A stretch of DNA of 62,267 nt from Anaerolineae bacterium (GTDB lineage: Bacteria > Chloroflexota > Anaerolineae > Aggregatilineales > J027). Every line of letters begins with the position of its first letter. Position 1 is the first letter of the stretch. Shown in pieces: positions 423 through 14,576 of this stretch. The translations under genes were made by a program, and so were the position numbers. The notes beneath the pieces are model-generated. The model made no database searches. It worked only from the letters and a program-made list of their open reading frames with translations, and was not told the origin of the DNA. The DNA is taken from NCBI GenBank assembly GCA_021463865.1, contig JAJTXY010000022.1, forward strand, positions 1-62,267, written 5' to 3'.

Positions 423-2165
423 TTACAATAACCCCTCTGCGGCCATTTCCTGCAAAAACTTCTCCCGATTAGCATTCCGCGCAATCTTGCCGCTGCTGGT
501 CTTAATCAACCATTTCGGGCCGACCAGATGCACAAACCGCGCATTCACATCCGTCGCCTGCACAATCCGCTGCCGGGCCTCGCGCTGAATCCGTCCCTGT
601 GTTTCCTCATCGTCCTGCGTAATCTCGGCAATCACCGCGATGTCTTCTGTGCCGAGTTTTTCATTAAACACCCCAAACGCCACCGTGCGCCCATCCTTGA
701 CCCCGTCAATCTGGCTGACAATGGCCTCAATATCTTGGGGATAGATGTTCTTGCCGCCGACGATAATCAAATCTTTCTTGCGCCCCGTGACATATAATTC
801 GCCTTCCGTCATATAGCCGAGGTCGCCTGTCAGATACCAGCCTTCATACAAGGCCTGCGCCGAAATTTCCGGTTGATGGTAATACCCCGTCAGCATCGAA
901 TCACTCCGCAGCGCGATTTCCCCAATCTGGCGTTCTGGCAACGGTTTTTTATCCCTGTCGCCATCTACCACCCGTACCTCGCAATTGGGGATCGGCTTGC
1001 CACACGACACCACCACCAATACCCCGTCAGTGTCGCTCCCATCGGCAGGCACAGCCCGATTCTGCTCCTGAAACGGCAGGCGTTGAATCCGGTCATATTT
1101 TTGTGGGCCATCCATGCCGCTTTGGGTCACAGCAAACGTATTTTCCGCCATCGCATATGAGACCGTCAGCGCATCGGGAGCTAATCCGTAGGGGGCATAT
1201 TTTTCTTGGAAGATTTGATGGCTATCGGCCCGCACAGGTTCGGAACAATTGATAAAGGCCCGCATACTGCTCAGATCAAGATTTTCCAGATGCACATCAC
1301 GGATACGGGTCGCCAGCAGGTTATAGGCAAAATTCGGCAGCCAGCATAGCGTCCCCCGATATTTTTGGATGGCGTGCAGCAGAATATGCGGCGCACGTAC
1401 CCAATGGAATGGCGACATCAGCACCAGCGGAATCCCCTGCATCAGCGGCATGATGAACCCCGCGATTAACCCCATATCGTGATAGAGGGGCAGCCAACTG
1501 CAAATCACATCATCCGCCTGCAACCGAATCGCGGCGCTGTATGCCGCCAATTGATTCAACACCGCCCGATGTGACAGCATGACCCCTTTTTGCAACCCCG
1601 TGCTGCCCGATGAGTGCTGCAAAAACGCGGTAGATTGAGCGGGGGGGGCATAGGCCAAAAACTCATCGGGATGACCGCCGGGGGTCAGCGCATCGGTGAC
1701 CAATATCGGCAGCATCCCTTCGACATCCGCCAGCACCGTATTTAAGCGGTCATACAGCGCTGGATAGGTGATAATCAGCCGCACCCCCGAACGCTCCACC
1801 AGCGCATGGAGGCTCTCAAAATAACGATCTGGGTCGAGTTTTTCCGTCAAAAATGGGAAGATGCTCGGCACCGCCCCCAGCAATATCGCCCCCCAAAAGC
1901 TATACAGCACATCTAGGCTGTGTTCCAACACCAGCACCACCAGATCGCCGGCCTGAATACCATTTTGTTTCAAGGCATGGGCAACTTCCGCCGCATGTTC
2001 AAAAAATGCACGGGTCGAAATTTTCTGCTCTCCATCGGGGGTTATAAAATAGAGCGCGGTGGCGTCCGGCTGTGTTTCCAGCAGATACCGGATTTGGGCA
2101 TTCAGCGTTTCGGGTAATGGATGGTCAAGGCGAATAGGGACTTGGGTGGTGCTTGGTGCGGTCAT
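423..2165 (-). CDS. fatty-acyl-AMP ligase-like adenylating enzyme (DltA-like role)
   Basis: ANL-superfamily adenylating enzyme of 580 residues, predicted cytoplasmic. It would activate a carboxylic acid with ATP and load it onto the carrier protein encoded just upstream. The P-loop HSSGSTGLQKGV lies near residue 185. WLPLYHDMGL, a motif strongly associated with fatty-acyl-AMP ligases, follows near 225. YAMAEN near 340, TGRKKDLIIVGGKNIYPQDI near 465 and the C-terminal KTSSGKIAR lysine complete the core motifs. The substrate is inferred: the motifs point to an acyl chain rather than D-alanine, but this is not proven. It is transcribed after the carrier gene with a 30-nt gap and forms the cytoplasmic half of an acylation locus whose membrane half is divergent. 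Another ANL specificity, such as an amino or aryl acid, remains possible. Confidence 0.88.
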   Translation of the reverse strand: MTAPSTTQVPIRLDHPLPETLNAQIRYLLETQPDATALYFITPDGEQKISTRAFFEHAAEVAHALKQNGIQAGDLVVLVLEHSLDVLYSFWGAILLGAVPSIFPFLTEKLDPDRYFESLHALVERSGVRLIITYPALYDRLNTVLADVEGMLPILVTDALTPGGHPDEFLAYAPPAQSTAFLQHSSGSTGLQKGVMLSHRAVLNQLAAYSAAIRLQADDVICSWLPLYHDMGLIAGFIMPLMQGIPLVLMSPFHWVRAPHILLHAIQKYRGTLCWLPNFAYNLLATRIRDVHLENLDLSSMRAFINCSEPVRADSHQIFQEKYAPYGLAPDALTVSYAMAENTFAVTQSGMDGPQKYDRIQRLPFQEQNRAVPADGSDTDGVLVVVSCGKPIPNCEVRVVDGDRDKKPLPERQIGEIALRSDSMLTGYYHQPEISAQALYEGWYLTGDLGYMTEGELYVTGRKKDLIIVGGKNIYPQDIEAIVSQIDGVKDGRTVAFGVFNEKLGTEDIAVIAEITQDDEETQGRIQREARQRIVQATDVNARFVHLVGPKWLIKTSSGKIARNANREKFLQEMAAEGLL

Positions 2166-2195
2166 GATACTCCAGAGGTGTGTTTTGTTGGCAGG

Positions 2196-2435
2196 TTATT
2201 GGCGAGCTTCAATCAATTTGGCAATGTCATCCACCGTGTTGCAGGTGGCGACGGTCATTTCCATGTCGTCAATCCACACGCCAAACTGCTTTTCGATATA
2301 TAACTGCACCTCGACCAGTGAGAACGAATCAATCAGGCCGCCGGAAATCAGCGGTTCGCCATCTTTCAGCGGATACTTGGGATTCCGCATAATTTCTTTG
2401 GTGATAAACGTCTTGAGTTCTTGTCGAATGTCCAT
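2196..2435 (-). CDS. acyl carrier protein (DltC-like role)
   Basis: Carrier protein of 79 residues with the motif GGLIDSFSLVE. Ser37 in the D-S-F context is the expected 4'-phosphopantetheine attachment site. The acidic four-helix pattern and the length are typical of ACP and DltC proteins. The start has GGAG five bases upstream, and an extended -10 element lies at 2468-2476. It is the first gene of a two-gene leftward operon with the AMP ligase, so it is very likely the acceptor of that enzyme. It would then present the acyl group to the divergently encoded MBOAT. I see no phosphopantetheinyl transferase in the window. Confidence 0.9.
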   Translation of the reverse strand: MDIRQELKTFITKEIMRNPKYPLKDGEPLISGGLIDSFSLVEVQLYIEKQFGVWIDDMEMTVATCNTVDDIAKLIEARQ

Positions 2436-2467
2436 GTCTGCTCCAATTTTGGGAAAATGACCCTGCC

Positions 2468-2476
2468 ATTATAACA
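2468..2476 (-). promoter_or_regulatory. extended -10 promoter for carrier protein/ligase operon
   Basis: The minus strand reads TGTTATAAT, a perfect -10 hexamer with the TGn extension, about 33 nt upstream of the carrier-protein start. No good -35 box is visible, as is usual for extended -10 promoters. Confidence 0.55.
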
Positions 2477-2538
2477 GGATTTCCATGTCAGAAAACGACC
2501 CGCCGTCGTGCGTGCGCTCCCCGTGCGACAATCGCCCG

Positions 2539-2567
2539 TTGGCAAGTTGCCACCCTATCTGTACAAT
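2539..2567 (+). promoter_or_regulatory. sigma70-type promoter for microprotein/MBOAT/SGNH operon
   Basis: TTGGCA (2539-2544), a 17-nt spacer and TACAAT (2562-2567) form a near-consensus housekeeping promoter. The expected transcription start near 2574 is only about 14 nt before the microprotein ATG. This supports that small gene as the true first gene of the operon. Confidence 0.6.
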
Positions 2568-2587
2568 GTGCCCGTCCATTGCTTTCG

Positions 2588-2752
2588 ATGGCTAGGAAAA
2601 ATACTGTGTTTAACCGTAACCTGCTCCAAAAATTAATACGCCTCATCTTCTCGCGGGAAAATATCTTCGCGGTGATGCTCTGCCTCATCATCATTTTGCT
2701 GATTATTGTCACGGCGGATACCGCGCCTCAGTGGATTTATCAGGGTTTCTAA
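2588..2752 (+). CDS. 54-residue single-span membrane microprotein (DltX-like acyl shuttle candidate)
   Basis: The reading frame runs from ATG 2588 to TAA 2750-2752. The product starts MARKNTVFNRNLLQKL, with six Arg/Lys before one hydrophobic span (about residues 26-42), then TADTAPQ and the C-terminal hexapeptide W-I-Y-Q-G-F. The positive N-terminus predicts N-in/C-out topology, which puts Tyr51 outside the membrane. In DltX-type microproteins a tyrosine in a C-terminal hexapeptide of similar aromatic pattern carries the acyl group from the MBOAT to the outer transferase. The ending also recalls the small DUF5989 family. The MBOAT gene starts nine bases after the stop, and a strong promoter lies just upstream. 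No Shine-Dalgarno is obvious, so translation may be near-leaderless. Being a real gene is likely; the shuttle role is inferred from motif and context. Confidence 0.75.
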   Translation: MARKNTVFNRNLLQKLIRLIFSRENIFAVMLCLIIILLIIVTADTAPQWIYQGF

Positions 2753-2761
2753 AGCGACGCT

Positions 2762-4189
2762 ATGACCCTTACCCACATTCTCGTTTTTGCGCTGGTGTCC
2801 CTGCCCTTCATGTGGCTAATTCCGACGCACTGGCGACCCCAAAGTCTGCTTTTCGCCAGCATTTTAGCATTGGCGTGGCTGTTGGCCGATGATGCCCTCA
2901 ATCATCTCGATTTTATGATCTTGATCGGCACACTCGCCCTCAGCATTGCCGTATGGTGGATTGTCCAGCCGCCCTCCGAAACCATGCCCACCCGCCGCGC
3001 CGATACCCAAACTTTCTTGATTATCGGCATCGGGATACTCTTTGCAGGCTTAATATTGGCCCTTTTTGACCGACCCTCCAACTTTCTGATGCCCATTTTT
3101 GGTATAGCAGTGGCGACAGTCGGTGCGTTGAATCTGCCCCAACTCCTGCTATCCACCAACACCGAAATCTATAAGCGCCTGAGTCTCTTATTCGTCGTTG
3201 GCCTGATCGTGATTTTGGTCATTCTCAAAATCCCCGCCAGCGCCCGTTTTTTCAGCCTTGCCCTTGACCACGACGAGGCCCTCCATCCAACAGGCATTAC
3301 CCCACTGGCGTGGCTCGGTTTTTCCTATATCGCCTTCCGCTTAATCGGGGTGTTGTTCGATTTCCGCGCCGGACGCCTCCCCAAAGATGGCATGGCCCTG
3401 CGTGATTTCCTGATCTATGTGATTTTCTTCCCCGCCATGACCGCTGGCCCGATTGACCGTGTACAGCGATTTATCCCCGAACTGAATCAGACCAAACCGC
3501 TCGATTCGGCCCGATTGATGGAAGGCACGATGCGAATCATGGTTGGGGCATTCAAAAAATTCGTAATTGCCGACAGTCTAGCCCTCGTCGCGCTAAATCC
3601 AACCCTTGTCAACCGCACCGGGGATACACTTGGCGCATGGCTGTTGCTGTATATCTACGCCTTCCGCATCTTCTTCGATTTCAGCGGCTATTCGGATGTC
3701 GCTATCGGTATCGGGCGTCTATATGGCATCACCTTGCCCGAAAATTTTGACCGTCCCTACACCCAGCCCAATTTGCAGCAGTTTTGGCAGCGTTGGCACA
3801 TTACCCTGAGTACATGGTTCCGCTTGTATTATTTCACCCCCATCAGCCGCGTGATGCTCCGCAGCGGGGTCAAAATGCCACAGTGGTTGATGGTCATGGT
3901 CGCCCAAATCAGCACGATGGTCTTGATTGGCCTCTGGCATGGGATAACACTCAATTTTGTCCTATGGGGATTGTGGCACGGCATCGGCTTGTTTATTCAC
4001 AAACTCATTTTGGATAACACCCGCGTCTGGTATCAAAACATTAGCCAACATCGCTGGCGACGGCGTTTTATTTTTGGCATTAGCTGGCTGACCACCTTTC
4101 ATTATGTCGCGCTGGGATGGGTCTTTTTTGCCCTGCCCACCCCCGCCGACAGTCTGGCGATGCTGGCCCGTTTGGTAGGAGGTCGTTAA
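2762..4189 (+). CDS. membrane-bound O-acyltransferase (MBOAT, DltB/AlgI family)
   Basis: Polytopic protein of 475 residues with about eleven hydrophobic segments. The family core is present: DFRAGRLPK near 205, FFPAMTAGPIDR near 228, FSGYSDVAIGIGRLYG near 310, FWQRWHITLSTWFRLY near 345, and the His-bearing pair GLWHG/GLWHG with His393 and His406. MBOATs of this type take an acyl group from a cytoplasmic thioester donor and pass it across the membrane to a partner. Here the likely donor is the carrier protein encoded divergently, and the likely acceptor is the microprotein nine bases upstream or the SGNH protein downstream. The next gene starts on the base after this stop. An alginate-type O-acetylase is the main alternative, but a dedicated ligase and carrier argue against acetyl-CoA as the donor. 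Confidence 0.93.
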   Translation: MTLTHILVFALVSLPFMWLIPTHWRPQSLLFASILALAWLLADDALNHLDFMILIGTLALSIAVWWIVQPPSETMPTRRADTQTFLIIGIGILFAGLILALFDRPSNFLMPIFGIAVATVGALNLPQLLLSTNTEIYKRLSLLFVVGLIVILVILKIPASARFFSLALDHDEALHPTGITPLAWLGFSYIAFRLIGVLFDFRAGRLPKDGMALRDFLIYVIFFPAMTAGPIDRVQRFIPELNQTKPLDSARLMEGTMRIMVGAFKKFVIADSLALVALNPTLVNRTGDTLGAWLLLYIYAFRIFFDFSGYSDVAIGIGRLYGITLPENFDRPYTQPNLQQFWQRWHITLSTWFRLYYFTPISRVMLRSGVKMPQWLMVMVAQISTMVLIGLWHGITLNFVLWGLWHGIGLFIHKLILDNTRVWYQNISQHRWRRRFIFGISWLTTFHYVALGWVFFALPTPADSLAMLARLVGGR

Positions 4190-5356
4190 ATGGCTGGCTG
4201 GGATTGGCTGACCAAACCTAAAACCCCCTATAGCCGCCGCTTTGTTCGCAATGTCGTGATGAAAGGCGTGCTGCTGTTTATCGCCCTCAATGCGTGTTAT
4301 GCCCTTACCAATCCCCTGCCAATCCTGAGCCGTATCACCCTTTATAATTCAGCCCTACCGGGGCGTGATCGTCTGCCCTATTCCGAAAATCCCGCCAGCG
4401 ATTACAACATCTCTGTCCAGCGACTAGAGGGCATGTTCGCCTCGATAAAACTCAGCCAAACGCCAAAGGCAGACGATGAATATCGTGTCTTTTTCTTGGG
4501 GGATTCTTCGGTGTGGGGTTGGCTGCTGGAAGAGGATGAAACCCTTAGCGCGTGCATCAATCGTGGCAATTATCGGATGCCGGATGGTCGGCGTGTGGTC
4601 GTCTATAATTTAGGCTACCCCGTGACTAACGTCCTCAAGGATTCTATGTTATTGGAGGAATCCCTACAATATGAGCCGGATTTGGTCGTCTGGTTTTTGA
4701 CGTTGGCCGGGTTTTATATCCAAGACCAACTCAAACATCAAGTTGTGCAGAATAATGCCGATCTTGCCCGTGATCTAATTGAACGCTACGACCTTGCGCT
4801 GGATGAAAACCGCCTCCCCGATGACCCTAATTTGTGGGAACGCAGCATCATCGGACAGCGCCGCGAATTAGCCGACCTGCTCCGTCATCAAGTTTATGGT
4901 GTGGCGTGGCTGGCGACGGGTTATGACCACCGCAACCCCAAATTTCATGAACAGCGTGTCGAAAATCTGCTCCCCGGCGACGACCTTTTAGGCAAGCCCC
5001 GCGTTGAGGGCGGCTGGACAGAAGATTTGTTGTCCTTTGACGTGATGCTGGCGGGTATGGACATCGCGCAAAAGGATAATTTGCCCGTGTTAGTCATCAA
5101 TGAACCCATTTTCCGTACCAGTGGCTTTAACAACGAAAATCGTTACAACGATTACTATCCCAAATGGGCCTATGACAGCTATCGAGAACTACTCACCAGC
5201 ATTGCCCAACGCGAAAACTGGCACTACACCGACCTATGGGACGCTGCACCGAACGACCAATTCACCAACACAGGCCTCCACCTCACCCCCGCCGCGACGT
5301 GCGAACTTGCCCACAAAATGGTGCCGTATATTATGGCGCTGGCGGAGCAACCGTGA
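4190..5356 (+). CDS. membrane-anchored SGNH-like acyltransferase (DltD/AlgJ-like role)
   Basis: Protein of 388 residues with one N-terminal membrane span (about 22-40) and an extracytoplasmic SGNH-type domain. FFLGDSSVWGW carries the candidate nucleophile Ser106 in the G-D-S block. YNLGYPVTN is the second block, and a C-terminal GLHLTP supplies the candidate His364. The usual Asp three residues before that His is Thr here, so the triad is atypical. The ATG follows the MBOAT stop directly, which implies translational coupling. In Dlt and alginate systems such a protein receives the acyl group outside the membrane and transfers it to the polymer. The acceptor here is unknown. The 3' end overlaps the convergent membrane-protein gene by 26 bp. 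Confidence 0.82.
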   Translation: MAGWDWLTKPKTPYSRRFVRNVVMKGVLLFIALNACYALTNPLPILSRITLYNSALPGRDRLPYSENPASDYNISVQRLEGMFASIKLSQTPKADDEYRVFFLGDSSVWGWLLEEDETLSACINRGNYRMPDGRRVVVYNLGYPVTNVLKDSMLLEESLQYEPDLVVWFLTLAGFYIQDQLKHQVVQNNADLARDLIERYDLALDENRLPDDPNLWERSIIGQRRELADLLRHQVYGVAWLATGYDHRNPKFHEQRVENLLPGDDLLGKPRVEGGWTEDLLSFDVMLAGMDIAQKDNLPVLVINEPIFRTSGFNNENRYNDYYPKWAYDSYRELLTSIAQRENWHYTDLWDAAPNDQFTNTGLHLTPAATCELAHKMVPYIMALAEQP

Positions 5357-7448
5357 TCTGCCCATCCGCCCCAATCGTCACATCCGCCAGCACGATATGA
5401 TCCCCCGATGCCCCTTGCAGCCGTTCAAATGTCTTGGAGTCATAGAACCCAACCCGAATTTGATACTCCCCCTCTGGCACATCTGCCATCGCCAGCACAC
5501 GAGTTTCGGCAATCACATCGCCTACCTGCCAGAATCGGGTCGGGTAGCGGCCACCCACCGGTGTTCCATCGGCCTGTCGCAGCGGTGCAGCTTCTCCCAT
5601 TGGCACAAAATGCAAGAAAATATCATAGTCCCGATTGAAGGATTCCTGCGCTCCCCACATCAGATTAACCGTAATTTGCCCCTCGATTGTTGAGAAATCG
5701 GCGGCATACAAAATCGCCGGGCCGAGTGTGCCGATTTGGGTTGTCGGTGGTGAAACCGCCGCGCCCTGCAAAAACACACTGCCAATCGTCGCCTGATTCA
5801 ACGTAGCGGCCTTGTAATCCAACGTCACCGAGATATTTAGCAAGCCGGGTTGTGCATCCTCTGGAATCAACAGCGCATGATAGGTGCTAATTTCCAGCGG
5901 TTTCCACGCCACAGGTTCAAAGCGCGGAAAGATAGATACAATCGGATTGCCTGTGATATCCAATAAACTGACATACACCCCCATTTGGGTCGTAGGAGGG
6001 CGGTCTAATTGCCAATCTAAACGTAATCGGAGTGTTTCACCGGGGCGCAGGCGAGTATTATCCACCGCATAGCCTATTAGCCTCACATCCGGGCTGTAAT
6101 CAATATCGAGGGTTTGTGTCTCCCCCCATTCGCCAATCACCGATTCGCGCACCCATAATTCATCGCCATTTCGCACAGGTGCATTTTCATTGATGGACTG
6201 TTGAGTGTAATTCAACCCTGCCACCCCTTGACTCTGCATATCCATATCCGCCAGCGGGCCATCCTCACGATTGAAATAGAGCACCTCCGGCGCAAGGGCC
6301 ACCAACAGCGATTCCCGATCCTCCCGCCGCAACAGCGCATCAATAAACGGGGAGCGCCGACCATCTAAGCGGTAAATCTCATCCTCATCCAATTTTACTG
6401 TCAGCGCATCACTGCGATCATGGGCATAGCTCTTGGCCTCGCTCAGATATTCCGCAAGGCGTTGGTCATCTTGCAGCGAATTTTCGGTTTCAGGGGGTGC
6501 AATCGCCAAAATTAAGCCCATTACCACAACCAACCCCACCAGTATGGGGACTTGGAAACTTTTCAGAGCAGACCCTCGGCTGAGATTGACCAAAATTAAG
6601 GCCACCACTAATCCCAATGAGGTGCTTTCGAGGGCACGGTTTGAGAAAATGAAATAAGCTACGATTTCGCCTAACCCCCATACAATCAAAATCAGCATCG
6701 GGCGCGATTCATCCGACCAAGCCAAGCGTGAAATGGTAAGCCCGCCTGCAATCAATAGCCCCAACCACAAGATCACTTGCCACGCCAAATTTGTATGGAG
6801 GTATAAATCCAGCGCCAGTCCTGCCAGCCCATCAAAGCCATAAACCACGATGGCGATACCTGTCCAAATTGCCCCCGGCAGCCACACCACTTGCCAGAAG
6901 CGCCGCCCTTGTTCATAGGTCAGGGCATACACACCAATCAACGCCGCCCCGATCAAACCCGTCGGTTGGGCTAAGACCGACAACCCCGCCACCCATCCGG
7001 CCCAACGCCATTTGGCATGGGTCGCCAATTCCAACCCGCCGAGGATAAACATCGCGGCTAGACCCGCCAATGAGCGTATCCCCGCCCAAACGACCCATGA
7101 GGCCAGCCATAGCATAAGGCACAGCACACTTTCAAGATCGCTGTAACCCCAGCGGCGCATGAATCGGAACAGACTCCCCCCCGCGACGGCATAGGCAACC
7201 GCCGACACCACCAACACCGTGTTTTCAAATAGCAGTGCAGCATTGATGACGACAGGTAAGGGGCTGGCCGTCAGCAGCGTCTTTTCGCCGGGAGTATAGA
7301 CCATGCCTCGTCCATCATGGAAATTTCGGGCCAATTGATACGCCAAAAAATCGGCTTCTCGGTGATAGTCTTTGAGGATGACCAAGCCGACAACACAGAG
7401 ATAGACAAAAATAATCAGGCTGATGAGATGGGATTTTTGGTTCGACAT
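5331..7448 (-). CDS. GT-C-like integral membrane protein with extracytoplasmic C-terminal domains
   Basis: Protein of 705 residues. The first 320 or so are strongly hydrophobic (about ten spans). After span 1 comes READFLAYQLARNFHDGRG, which resembles the first outer loop of arabinosyl/mannosyl GT-C enzymes (normally D-D-A-Y/F...ARNL..G.G), but the D-D pair is E-A-D here. The C-terminal half is predicted extracytoplasmic and contains two beta-sandwich-like segments (RLRPGETLRLRLDW; EGQITVNLMWG). A role in polymer or glycoprotein glycosylation is possible but unproven. It converges on the SGNH gene and overlaps its end, so it is not in that operon, although it might make the acceptor glycan. 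Confidence 0.6.
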   Translation of the reverse strand: MSNQKSHLISLIIFVYLCVVGLVILKDYHREADFLAYQLARNFHDGRGMVYTPGEKTLLTASPLPVVINAALLFENTVLVVSAVAYAVAGGSLFRFMRRWGYSDLESVLCLMLWLASWVVWAGIRSLAGLAAMFILGGLELATHAKWRWAGWVAGLSVLAQPTGLIGAALIGVYALTYEQGRRFWQVVWLPGAIWTGIAIVVYGFDGLAGLALDLYLHTNLAWQVILWLGLLIAGGLTISRLAWSDESRPMLILIVWGLGEIVAYFIFSNRALESTSLGLVVALILVNLSRGSALKSFQVPILVGLVVVMGLILAIAPPETENSLQDDQRLAEYLSEAKSYAHDRSDALTVKLDEDEIYRLDGRRSPFIDALLRREDRESLLVALAPEVLYFNREDGPLADMDMQSQGVAGLNYTQQSINENAPVRNGDELWVRESVIGEWGETQTLDIDYSPDVRLIGYAVDNTRLRPGETLRLRLDWQLDRPPTTQMGVYVSLLDITGNPIVSIFPRFEPVAWKPLEISTYHALLIPEDAQPGLLNISVTLDYKAATLNQATIGSVFLQGAAVSPPTTQIGTLGPAILYAADFSTIEGQITVNLMWGAQESFNRDYDIFLHFVPMGEAAPLRQADGTPVGGRYPTRFWQVGDVIAETRVLAMADVPEGEYQIRVGFYDSKTFERLQGASGDHIVLADVTIGADGQITVAPPAP

Positions 7449-11669: not shown

Positions 11670-14576
11670 ATGGCTACACAACACGGTTTTGAACTCGTCA
11701 AAGATACGTTTATCCCCGAACTGAACAGCCAAGCACGGCTCTATCGGCATGTGCAGACCGGCGCGGAACTGCTTTCGATGGAAAACGACGACGAGAATAA
11801 ATGTTTTGGTATCACCTTCCGCACCCTGCCGGAAGACTCAACCGGCATTGCTCATATCTTGGAACACTCCGTCTTGGATGGATCACGCAAATATCCGGTC
11901 AAAAGCCCATTTGTGGAGTTACTTAAAGGGTCTCTACAAACCTTTGTCAACGCCATGACCTATCCCGACAAAACGGTTTATCCTTGTGCCAGCCAGAACC
12001 TCCGCGATTTTTACAATCTCGTGGATGTCTATATGGACACGGTGTTTTATCCACGTTTTGGCCCCCAAACCTTGCAGCAAGAGGGTTGGCATTTTGAATT
12101 GGAGAACCCCGACGACCCGCTCACCTATAAAGGCGTAGTGTTTAATGAAATGAAGGGGGCCTATTCCGACGCCGATGATTTGCTACGCCAGCGCATTCAG
12201 GCCTCCATGTTCCCCGATAACCTCTATCGCCTCGATTCCGGTGGCGACCCAGCGGTCATGCCTACTCTGACCTTTGCGCAGTTCAAAAAGTTCTATGACA
12301 CGCACTATCACCCATCCAACGCGATGATTTTCTTCTATGGCGATGACGACCCCGCCGAACGGTTGCGTTTTACCAATGACTACCTGAAAGATTTCCAGCG
12401 CCTAGAAATTGACTCGACTATTCCACTGCAAAAGCCATTTAATGCTCCCAAGCGCCTGACCTATCCCTATGACGCGGGGGAAGAAGCCAACAGCATGGTC
12501 ACGGTCAACTGGTTACTGCCCGAATCCGCCAATTCGGAAATCAACATGGCGATGCAGGTCTTGGCCCATATTTTGATTGGCACACCCGCCGCCCCCCTCC
12601 GTAAAATCCTGATTGAATCGGGCCTCGGTGAAGATTTGGCAGGCAGCGGATTGGTCAATGAACTGCGCCAGATGTATTTCTCAACGGGCTTGAAGGGTGT
12701 CCTGCCGGAAAATGTGAGTAAGGTCGAGGCTCTCATTTCTGAAACATTGGAAGCACTCGTTAAGGACGGCATTGACCCCGCAACCGTCGAAGCATCCTTG
12801 AACACGATTGAATTCCAACTACGTGAACTGAATACAGGCAGTTTTCCACGTGGCCTTGCACTGTTGATCGCCTCGTTAACCTCATGGGTCTATCATGGCG
12901 ACCCGCTTGGCCCATTAGCCTATGAAGGCCCATTAAACGCCATCAAAAATCACTTCGCCAGCAACCCGCGCTATTTTGAAGGGCTGATTCAACAATATCT
13001 GCTCAACAACAGCCATCGCGCCACCATCATCTTGGAACACGACGCCGAATACCGTCAGCGCTTGGAAGAGGATGAAGTCGCCCGCTTGGCAAAAATCAAA
13101 GCCGGGCTGAATGAGGCCGATCTCAAAGCCATTATCGAAAACACCCGTCAATTGAAACTGGCCCAAGAAACACCGGATACACCCGAAGCCCTTGCCAAGA
13201 TTCCCGTCCTCCAATTGAGCGACATTGACCGGCAGAACAAGATCGTGCCGCTGGAAATCTTGGAGGAACAGGGCAGCAAAATTTTCTATCACGACATTTT
13301 CACCAATGGCATCACTTATCTGGATGTCGGGTTTAATCTATACGCTCTGCCACAAGAGTATTTGCCCTATGTGAGCCTCTTTGGACGCGCCCTGTTTGAG
13401 ATGGGAACGGCCACCGAAGATTTTGTCAAACTCTCGCAGCGTATCGGTCGCAAAACAGGTGGGATTGACACCGCGACCTATACCTCCGTCGTACAGGAAA
13501 CCAATCGTTCAACGGCATGGCTGTTTTTGCGTGGCAAATCTACCGTCGCCCAAACCGATGACCTTTTGGCGATTCTGAGCGATGTCCTGCTGACAGTCAA
13601 TCTCGACAACCCCGAACGCTTCCTCCAGATGGTCTTGGAAGAAAAAGCGGGTCAGGAAGCACAGGTTGTCCCGGCGGGGCATATCGTCGTCAACACCCGT
13701 CTGCGTGCCCATTTTAATGAGGCGGCGTGGGCCAATGAACAAATGAGCGGTGTCAACTATCTGTTCTTCCTGCGTGACCTTGCCGAAAAGATTGAAAAAG
13801 ATTGGTCTGCCGTCCTGAAAACGTTGGAAGACATCCGCCGCCTGCTGGTCAATCGCAATGCGGTCATCTGCAATGTGACGTTGGACAGCGCGAATTGGAG
13901 CAAAATCCGACCCAGTCTCAATCATTTCCTATCCGGGTTGCCAGCGGTGCAGTTAAAAGCCCAACAATGGTTACGGCCTAAAGGCGGTTATCACGAGGGG
14001 CTGACTATTCCAGCGCAGGTCAATTACGTCGGTAAAGGCGCAAATCTCTATGATCTTGGCTACAAACTGCATAGCTCGGTAGATGTGATTAATCGTTTCC
14101 TCGGCACGACATGGCTGTGGGATAAAATCCGCGTACAGGGTGGGGCCTATGGCGGATTCAGCGTATTCGATTTCCGTTCCGGGGTGTTCACCTATATCTC
14201 CTACCGCGACCCCAACCTGATTGGCTCATTGGAAAATTACGATGCCACTGGCAATTTCCTGCGCCAACTCGATTTGCCGCAGGAAGAAGTAACCAAAGCC
14301 ATCATCGGCATCATCGGCGCGATGGACACTTATCAACTACCCGACGCTAAAGGCTACAACTCCATGCTGCGCTATCTGTCGGGCGATAGCGACGAAAAAC
14401 GCCAAATCCGCCGTGAACAAGTCCTGTCCACTACCGTCGCCGATTTCAAAGCCTTCGCCAACGTACTCGATAAAGTAGCCGAGGCGGGTGAGGTGGTTGT
14501 CTTGGGGTCGCAGGAATCCATCGAACAGGCCAACGAATCCCACGATGGCTTTTTGAAGGTCACACGGGTGCTGTAG
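11670..14576 (+). CDS. M16C (PreP-type) zinc metalloprotease
   Basis: Peptidase of 968 residues, the full length of the presequence-protease/insulinase C subfamily. The inverted zinc motif H-I-L-E-H is at residues 62-66, and the downstream Glu region is VFNEMKGAYSD near 160. The C-terminal half carries the substrate-closing motif region YGGFSVFDFRSG. PreP-type enzymes are clamshell oligopeptidases that degrade short unfolded peptides. No signal peptide is seen, so it is probably cytoplasmic peptide turnover. AGGAG lies upstream of the ATG. Two back-to-back terminators follow. Confidence 0.93.
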   Translation: MATQHGFELVKDTFIPELNSQARLYRHVQTGAELLSMENDDENKCFGITFRTLPEDSTGIAHILEHSVLDGSRKYPVKSPFVELLKGSLQTFVNAMTYPDKTVYPCASQNLRDFYNLVDVYMDTVFYPRFGPQTLQQEGWHFELENPDDPLTYKGVVFNEMKGAYSDADDLLRQRIQASMFPDNLYRLDSGGDPAVMPTLTFAQFKKFYDTHYHPSNAMIFFYGDDDPAERLRFTNDYLKDFQRLEIDSTIPLQKPFNAPKRLTYPYDAGEEANSMVTVNWLLPESANSEINMAMQVLAHILIGTPAAPLRKILIESGLGEDLAGSGLVNELRQMYFSTGLKGVLPENVSKVEALISETLEALVKDGIDPATVEASLNTIEFQLRELNTGSFPRGLALLIASLTSWVYHGDPLGPLAYEGPLNAIKNHFASNPRYFEGLIQQYLLNNSHRATIILEHDAEYRQRLEEDEVARLAKIKAGLNEADLKAIIENTRQLKLAQETPDTPEALAKIPVLQLSDIDRQNKIVPLEILEEQGSKIFYHDIFTNGITYLDVGFNLYALPQEYLPYVSLFGRALFEMGTATEDFVKLSQRIGRKTGGIDTATYTSVVQETNRSTAWLFLRGKSTVAQTDDLLAILSDVLLTVNLDNPERFLQMVLEEKAGQEAQVVPAGHIVVNTRLRAHFNEAAWANEQMSGVNYLFFLRDLAEKIEKDWSAVLKTLEDIRRLLVNRNAVICNVTLDSANWSKIRPSLNHFLSGLPAVQLKAQQWLRPKGGYHEGLTIPAQVNYVGKGANLYDLGYKLHSSVDVINRFLGTTWLWDKIRVQGGAYGGFSVFDFRSGVFTYISYRDPNLIGSLENYDATGNFLRQLDLPQEEVTKAIIGIIGAMDTYQLPDAKGYNSMLRYLSGDSDEKRQIRREQVLSTTVADFKAFANVLDKVAEAGEVVVLGSQESIEQANESHDGFLKVTRVL

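Follow-up and report, generated by a model that had tools for sequence, protein, structure and literature searches.

We describe a five-gene locus at the start of a 62,267-nucleotide stretch of Anaerolineae DNA (contig JAJTXY010000022.1 of assembly GCA_021463865.1; this whole stretch is the window). The locus probably encodes an envelope acylation system of five components that operates in the manner of Dlt, with a cargo of the fatty-acid type. The five genes are present, conserved and co-inherited, and the parts are assigned by family or fold. They are a fatty acyl-AMP ligase (FAAL)-type enzyme (A), an acyl carrier protein (ACP; C), a single-span microprotein (X), a membrane-bound O-acyltransferase (MBOAT; B) and an SGNH-fold protein (D). 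The system is a variant on the known Dlt-like scheme, an acyl relay of the Dlt kind whose loading module is FAAL-type; it is conserved in Anaerolineae. The evidence for this reading is the near all-or-none co-inheritance of the genes, the proximity of A to X, a sister group of MBOAT loci in which the shuttle motif is fused and a carrier gene is kept, and the position of B, which is nearest to DltB by both sequence and fold.

In the proposed pathway, A would adenylate a carboxylic acid, most likely a fatty acid, and load it onto the Ser37-phosphopantetheine of C (step 1). B would take the acyl group from C at the inner face and move it through the membrane to Tyr51, in the WIYQGF motif of X, at the outer face (step 2). 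X would pass the group to Ser106 of membrane-anchored D (step 3), and D would esterify a hydroxyl of an extracytoplasmic polymer (step 4). Since A is of the FAAL type, the cargo is most simply a fatty acid, and it is best read from the ligase sequence as a fatty-acyl-type chain.

A preliminary description of the window, made from the DNA letters, had claimed five adjacent Dlt-like roles in two divergent groups. This arrangement is borne out, with all five open reading frames found at 423-5356 (Table 1). A TTG at 2579, upstream of the ATG of X, is a possible alternative start. The region between the groups has one sigma-70-like match on the plus strand (2539-2567), against 0.7 expected from shuffles of 2150-2800. 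B and D adjoin in the window and lie within 500 bp of each other in 27 of the 39 genomes with both (weakest D matches omitted). The divergent layout is kept, by coordinates and strands, in all five genomes of the window's genus. Among five-gene loci the commonest layout is co-directional, X-B-D-C-A, seen in 26 of 160 loci examined (146 unique, the rest duplicates).

Families and folds of the five proteins

Pfam recognizes A (AMP-binding, 199 bits), C (PP-binding, 21.6 bits, cut-off 20.8) and B (MBOAT, 55.9 bits). D reaches 26.9 bits to Lipase_GDSL_2, below the cut-off of 32.9, and X has no Pfam match.

The link to Dlt is closest for B. When a profile of B was run against PDB sequences, the only clear relatives were two DltB entries (E 6e-68 and 3e-66); the third match, at E 2.3, is chance. 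The AlphaFold model of B (pLDDT 87.2) matches DltB with a Z score of 30.7 and a root-mean-square deviation (rmsd) of 3.1 over 383 residues, and the next match is PORCN at Z 24.3. His289, His336 and Trp285 of DltB correspond to His346, His393 and Trp342 of B, which are invariant in 20 of 20 sequences. On this model and alignment, B is a DltB-type MBOAT with both catalytic histidines, and it is the only MBOAT of its genome. Its score to the DltB equivalog model TIGR04091 is 228 bits, under the cut-off of 375. PORCN and HHAT, the fold neighbors after DltB, are structures solved, by their titles, with palmitoleoyl- or palmitoyl-coenzyme A (CoA), so the MBOAT fold is no obstacle to a fatty-acyl cargo.

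X is short, and its reality was judged from its conservation. A profile of X gave 97 matches in the 160 loci, and in 96 of these the reading frame closes with [WF][IM]Y[QAT][GN]F directly before the stop codon. The 97th lies inside an MBOAT and was rejected as false. Within the genus, the ratio of nonsynonymous to synonymous substitution rates (dN/dS) is 0.16-0.28 for X and 0.02-0.09 for A, C, B and D. The motif at the stop codon and this ratio argue that X is real rather than a chance reading frame. Across 89 distinct sequences the mean net charge is +1.3 before the span and -0.8 after it, a bias that fits a C-terminus on the outside. Tyrosine-shuttle chemistry, with the motif FXYXXF, is published for DltX and PatA (PMC12148441; here, as for the other papers cited, statements refer to excerpts of the source). 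The WIYQGF of X fits that motif, with Trp standing for the first Phe. A separate microprotein with a C-terminal acyl-shuttle motif is a mark of Dlt systems, and X is such a protein.

The assignment of D as an SGNH protein rests on its AlphaFold model (pLDDT 90.5), which has an SGNH fold; a profile of D run against PDB sequences found no SGNH protein. In the fold search CgnD leads at Z 15.9, and the best full-length matches include DltD (Z 14.4-14.7, rmsd 5.0-5.5, 281-297 residues). TesA and further SGNH enzymes score as high as DltD, with CgnD ahead of them all, so the fold of D gives no particular pointer to DltD. All 76 D sequences examined keep Ser106 and His364.

A is nearest, by sequence, to FAALs, and it aligns with them through the region of their insertion. 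Its best NCBIfam model is PRK07768, "long-chain-fatty-acid--CoA ligase", at 383 bits, followed by PRK09192, "fatty acyl-AMP ligase", at 362 bits and by other FAAL models at 190-286 bits, all under cut-off. Among its best 18 PDB matches, 11 bear fatty-acid or acyl-CoA enzyme names (FadD32, FadD28, FadD23, 3pbk and others). We take 3kxw (named Saframycin Mx1 synthetase B) and 3lnv, as well as 7r7e-g (polyketide synthase), to be FAALs also. A aligns in a single stretch with all 18, whereas the acyl-CoA ligases that follow align mostly in two pieces, with their best stretches ending near residue 325 or beginning near 385. We read residues ~325-385 of A as the FAAL-specific insertion, a feature described in PMC11837247. 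WLPLYHDMGL or WLPFYHDMGL is present in 55 of 61 distinct ligase sequences, fragments counted. The identification of A as DltA was rejected, with 36 bits to TIGR01734 against a cut-off of 559.85.

The Ser of the DSF motif of C (Ser37) is invariant in 17 of 17. C was likewise rejected as a DltC, reaching 22 and 18.3 bits to two models with cut-offs of 68 and 52.35. Among NCBIfam models it scores highest with an ornithine-lipid carrier (45 bits, cut-off 130). The genome has one ACPS-type transferase, which could arm the carrier. The TIGR04091, FAAL and DltC scores all fall under curated cut-offs, so they establish kinship but not identity.

Two further proposals of the preliminary description fared well against these data. 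The FAAL character of the ligase is supported by the NCBIfam FAAL models and the PDB alignments, though the top NCBIfam model is named for a CoA ligase. The Dlt-like reading draws support from the match of B to DltB in sequence and fold and from the co-inheritance of the five genes.

Co-inheritance, gene neighborhood and a fused-motif branch

The preliminary description had proposed a search for the five-gene set across genomes. Counts over 61 genomes, among them the window's own, are 45 for A, 45 for C, 44 for X, 47 for B and 42 for D. All five are present in 38, none in 12, and 11 are mixed. Pairwise Fisher tests across the five genes give values from 2e-6 to 4e-12; the genomes are related and partly incomplete, and the trials are therefore not independent. 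The empty genomes fall in six families (f1, f2, f3, f5, f6 and f7), five of which also contain full ones. Presence was set by hand. Counted as absent were the ligase of G039 (32% identity, in a 3237-residue frame), carriers below 39% identity (G008, G013, G020 and G021), X of G053 (E 0.004) and D of G039 (E 5e-4). For G051, D (E 4.9e-7) was counted as present and A as absent, despite a ligase fragment at a contig end (L080).

A wider sample of 400 Chloroflexota genomes gives the same picture. B of the window's type is found in 34, an orthologue of A in 33 and both in 32, and all of these belong to the window's class. That class contributes 55 genomes, for which the table of both, ligase only, MBOAT only and neither is 32/1/2/20 (p 9e-12), and A and B lie within 10 kb in 23 of the 32 genomes with both. 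Thresholds were above 400 bits for the MBOAT (34 of 70 matching genomes) and above 490 bits for the ligase (33 of 43), with 2-4 candidates scored per genome. Matches below threshold were taken as other MBOATs and as ligases that are distant or borne on polyketide synthases (PKS). The likely Chloroflexota host named in the preliminary description agrees with the best 80 named among 573 relatives, which are titled as Chloroflexota or as lineages belonging to it, apart from two labelled only "uncultured bacterium". All five genes stand together within the examined stretch in 24 of 80 named loci. The examined stretch of a cultured strain, Leptolinea tardivitalis YMTK-2 (L175), has X and B; A, C and D were not found in that stretch.

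The preliminary description had named separation of the two groups as a refutation, and here the answer is divided. Of the 46 genomes with both groups, 31 have A or C no more than 10 kb from X, B or D. In family f8 the groups are that close in only 1 of 11 genomes, though all five genes occur in 10 of the 11. The ligase and the microprotein gene are less than 500 bp apart in 15 of 42 genomes. These 10-kb and 500-bp counts leave out the weakest or partial rows. Six loci (L086, L090, L093, L094, L102 and L105) have A beside X with no MBOAT within the examined stretch.

Some relatives carry a sister kind of MBOAT, 32-39% identical to B, which ends in its own F[IV]YQGF or a variant (Table 1). A carrier gene of the family of C lies within ~1 kb of this MBOAT in all eight loci. 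Four of the eight, L070, L071, L080 and L092, also have a ligase near it, which in L080 and L092 is a fragment where the contig ends. The genomes of L070 and L071, drafts that are 80% and 89% complete, yielded neither X nor D. By gene context, these loci indicate that an MBOAT with a built-in shuttle can still have a carrier as its donor. A gene family beside the fused-motif MBOAT in six loci has DxxH in five of the six members. A GDS-type motif was found in none of the six, and one of three members checked has a weak GDSL match (18.8 bits).

Table 1. Coordinates of the five-gene locus in the window and of the fused-motif MBOATs of related loci
Feature	Sequence	Coordinates	Strand	Remarks
A, FAAL-type adenylating enzyme, stand-alone	window	423-2165	-	580 aa; WLPLYHDMGL; YAMAENT replacing usual YGxAE
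C, acyl carrier protein	window	2196-2435	-	79 aa; phosphopantetheine Ser37 within LIDSFSL
Divergent intergenic region	window	2436-2587		152 bp
X, single-span microprotein	window	2588-2752	+	54 aa from ATG; C-terminus ...APQWIYQGF; Tyr51 is the proposed acyl shuttle
B, DltB-type MBOAT	window	2762-4189	+	475 aa; His346 and His393; without fused C-terminal motif
D, SGNH-fold protein	window	4190-5356	+	388 aa; N-terminal hydrophobic helix; Ser106, His364
Fused-motif MBOAT	L070	2718-4172
Fused-motif MBOAT	L071	1684-3153
Fused-motif MBOAT	L080	2107-3534
Fused-motif MBOAT	L081	1051-2781
Fused-motif MBOAT	L082	4448-6178
Fused-motif MBOAT	L083	9175-10608
Fused-motif MBOAT	L084	2093-3679		variant FVYGGF
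Fused-motif MBOAT	L092	2155-3651		variant FMYVLF

Other genes recur around the system. A lipoprotein-like protein of ~130 residues stands beside it in many relatives (for example L127:7481-7864); of 51 such genes within 1.5 kb, 44 have X as the closest core gene. In 59 loci, secreted-looking SGNH-like proteins are encoded no more than 1.5 kb from the system (for example L127:10591-11574 and L119:10567-11652). Some of them have GDC where GDS is usual, possibly with a Cys nucleophile, and their Pfam support is partly weak. Neither the lipoprotein nor these SGNH-like proteins has a match in the window. As a guess, such neighbors may read or remove the modification. A recurrent polymer-synthesis neighbor, which would be a clue to the acceptor, was sought by clustering the neighbors of the 146 unique loci (clusters partly annotated) and by Pfam analysis of ten neighbors, and none was found. 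Neighbor cluster 2 was rejected as one family, since single linkage had joined unlike lipoproteins, and it was split with two profiles.

Two other genes of the window can be mentioned. A 705-residue protein on the minus strand (5331-7448), convergent with D and hydrophobic by eye in its first half, is kept beside D in the genus and shows weaker conservation in three other loci. It has no confident match in Pfam or NCBIfam. On the plus strand, 11670-14576 encodes a 968-residue PreP-like M16C metallopeptidase (Pfam), an ordinary gene.

Weighing the cargo and the alternatives

Several findings weigh against a Dlt-like relay for fatty acids. The top NCBIfam model of A, PRK07768, carries a CoA-ligase name, and 3 of its 18 best PDB matches (4r0m, 6ulx and 6ulw) are named McyG or amino acid adenylation domain protein. 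The Gly of the FAAL motif YGxAE is Ala (YAMAE) in 51 of the 54 ligases showing the motif. This position is said to set pocket depth in acyl-activating enzymes, for which a search of the open-licence literature gave no confirmation. The Ala may narrow the acyl pocket of A, leaving room for a shorter or different acid. D has Ser or Thr rather than Asp at the position three residues before its His (His-3) in 76 of 76 sequences; one residue further towards the N-terminus, 43 sequences have Asp, 32 have Asn and 1 has Glu. In B, the residues that dock DltC in DltB (Met302, Val305, Ile306 and Met309; PMC11035591) are Thr, Ser, Arg and Leu. They were dropped as support for a carrier donor, being unconserved, and are counted on the other side. 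Among the 61 genomes, B occurs without A in four and A without B in two. In 15 of the 46 genomes with both groups, A and C are not found within 10 kb of X, B or D, to which draft assemblies and contig ends contribute, and in G016, assembled in about 5 contigs, ligase and MBOAT are ~300 kb apart. Finally, cargo and acceptor rest on inference, as does every chemical step.

Part of this evidence would suit a smaller cargo. The same Dlt-like route could be used by a ligase whose specificity has shifted to a carboxylic acid that is short-chain or not of the fatty kind; the exported group would then be small. We consider this unlikely, though worth keeping in mind. The Gly-to-Ala change would fit it, as would the presence of 4r0m, 6ulx and 6ulw, which are not named as fatty-acid enzymes, among the best PDB matches. 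A C4 cargo has been hypothesised for one FAAL (PMC11837247), and the MBOAT/SGNH systems in PMC12148441 carry acetyl or D-alanine (D-Ala). However, Ala for Gly is a minor change, and the closest sequence relatives of A are mostly fatty-acid enzymes. The distances between the two groups raise another arrangement, in which A and C supply acyl-ACP to a different pathway, for example for an aminolipid, while X, B and D acetylate from acetyl-CoA. The ornithine-lipid carrier model that C matches best, the unconserved docking residues and the 15 genomes with separated groups are in line with such a split, and non-Dlt MBOAT/SGNH systems use acyl-CoA according to PMC12148441. It is nonetheless improbable, given that the five genes are inherited almost as one set, share neighborhoods in several layouts and have as a counterpart the carrier genes near the fused-motif MBOAT.

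A true Dlt system with D-Ala as cargo is very hard to credit. The score of B to the DltB model and the place of DltD among the best full-length fold matches of D would agree with it. Against it, A stands at 36 bits where the DltA model asks for 560, all 13 DltA-model matches in the genome stay under the cut-off, which is passed in 2 of 14 control genomes, and C fails both DltC models. The genome also has no match to Glyphos_transf, the teichoic acid polymerase family, which 3 of the 14 controls have. The DltA and teichoic acid negatives each concern one family in one genome that is 97% complete.

The Dlt-like relay with a fatty-acid-type cargo can be taken further. Anaerolineae may export medium or long fatty-acyl chains by a tyrosine relay of the Dlt type and attach them as esters to an outer glycopolymer, which would create a covalent hydrophobic layer; the fused-motif branch would bridge the Dlt and Pat types. 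We offer these two ideas jointly and tentatively, and on balance doubt them. An Omp85 match, over cut-off in 7 of 14 control genomes, was not found in the window's 97% complete genome, where this one family was searched.

How surprising the system is depends on its cargo. If the cargo is a fatty acid, the same relay through tyrosine would let bacteria decorate their outer polymers with fatty-acid esters, whereas the known MBOAT-SGNH systems in the literature examined move acetyl or D-Ala. A covalent acyl layer could then contribute to the multilayered envelope of some Chloroflexota (PMC13319060). Lineages outside the window's class would have no such contribution, as the sample showed no ligase-MBOAT pair there. 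For the envelope of Chloroflexota, which is poorly understood, the locus also supplies a set of genes that can be tested. In the open-licence PubMed Central literature, no paper combining "fatty acyl-AMP ligase" and "MBOAT" and no description of such a system was found.

Comparison with known systems

The closest likeness is to DltXABCD. Both have a ligase, a carrier, a microprotein with an aromatic-x-Tyr-x-x-Phe C-terminus, a DltB-fold MBOAT and an SGNH protein, here of DltD-like extent. The present system differs in its FAAL-type ligase, its non-DltC carrier, its WIYQGF motif and its other MBOAT docking residues. Its SGNH protein is without Asp at His-3, and its host genome is without a Glyphos_transf match.

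PatA/PatB and other MBOAT-SGNH acetylation pairs (PMC12148441) share the MBOAT, the SGNH protein and the tyrosine shuttle motif. In those pairs the motif is fused to the MBOAT and the donor is acetyl-CoA, whereas the window has a separate microprotein together with a carrier and a ligase. The sister loci look like hybrids by comparison, with a fused motif plus a carrier, and a ligase in four of them. FAAL and ACP pairs of PKS and nonribosomal peptide synthetase pathways (PMC11837247) resemble A and C in ligase family and in the stand-alone carrier partner. The difference is that here, judging from gene context, the acyl group would pass to a membrane exporter and not to an assembly line. In the excerpts of PMC12148441, MBOAT/SGNH pathways other than Dlt are said to lack a carrier protein. 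The loci described here, including those with a fused-shuttle MBOAT, are candidate exceptions to that rule.

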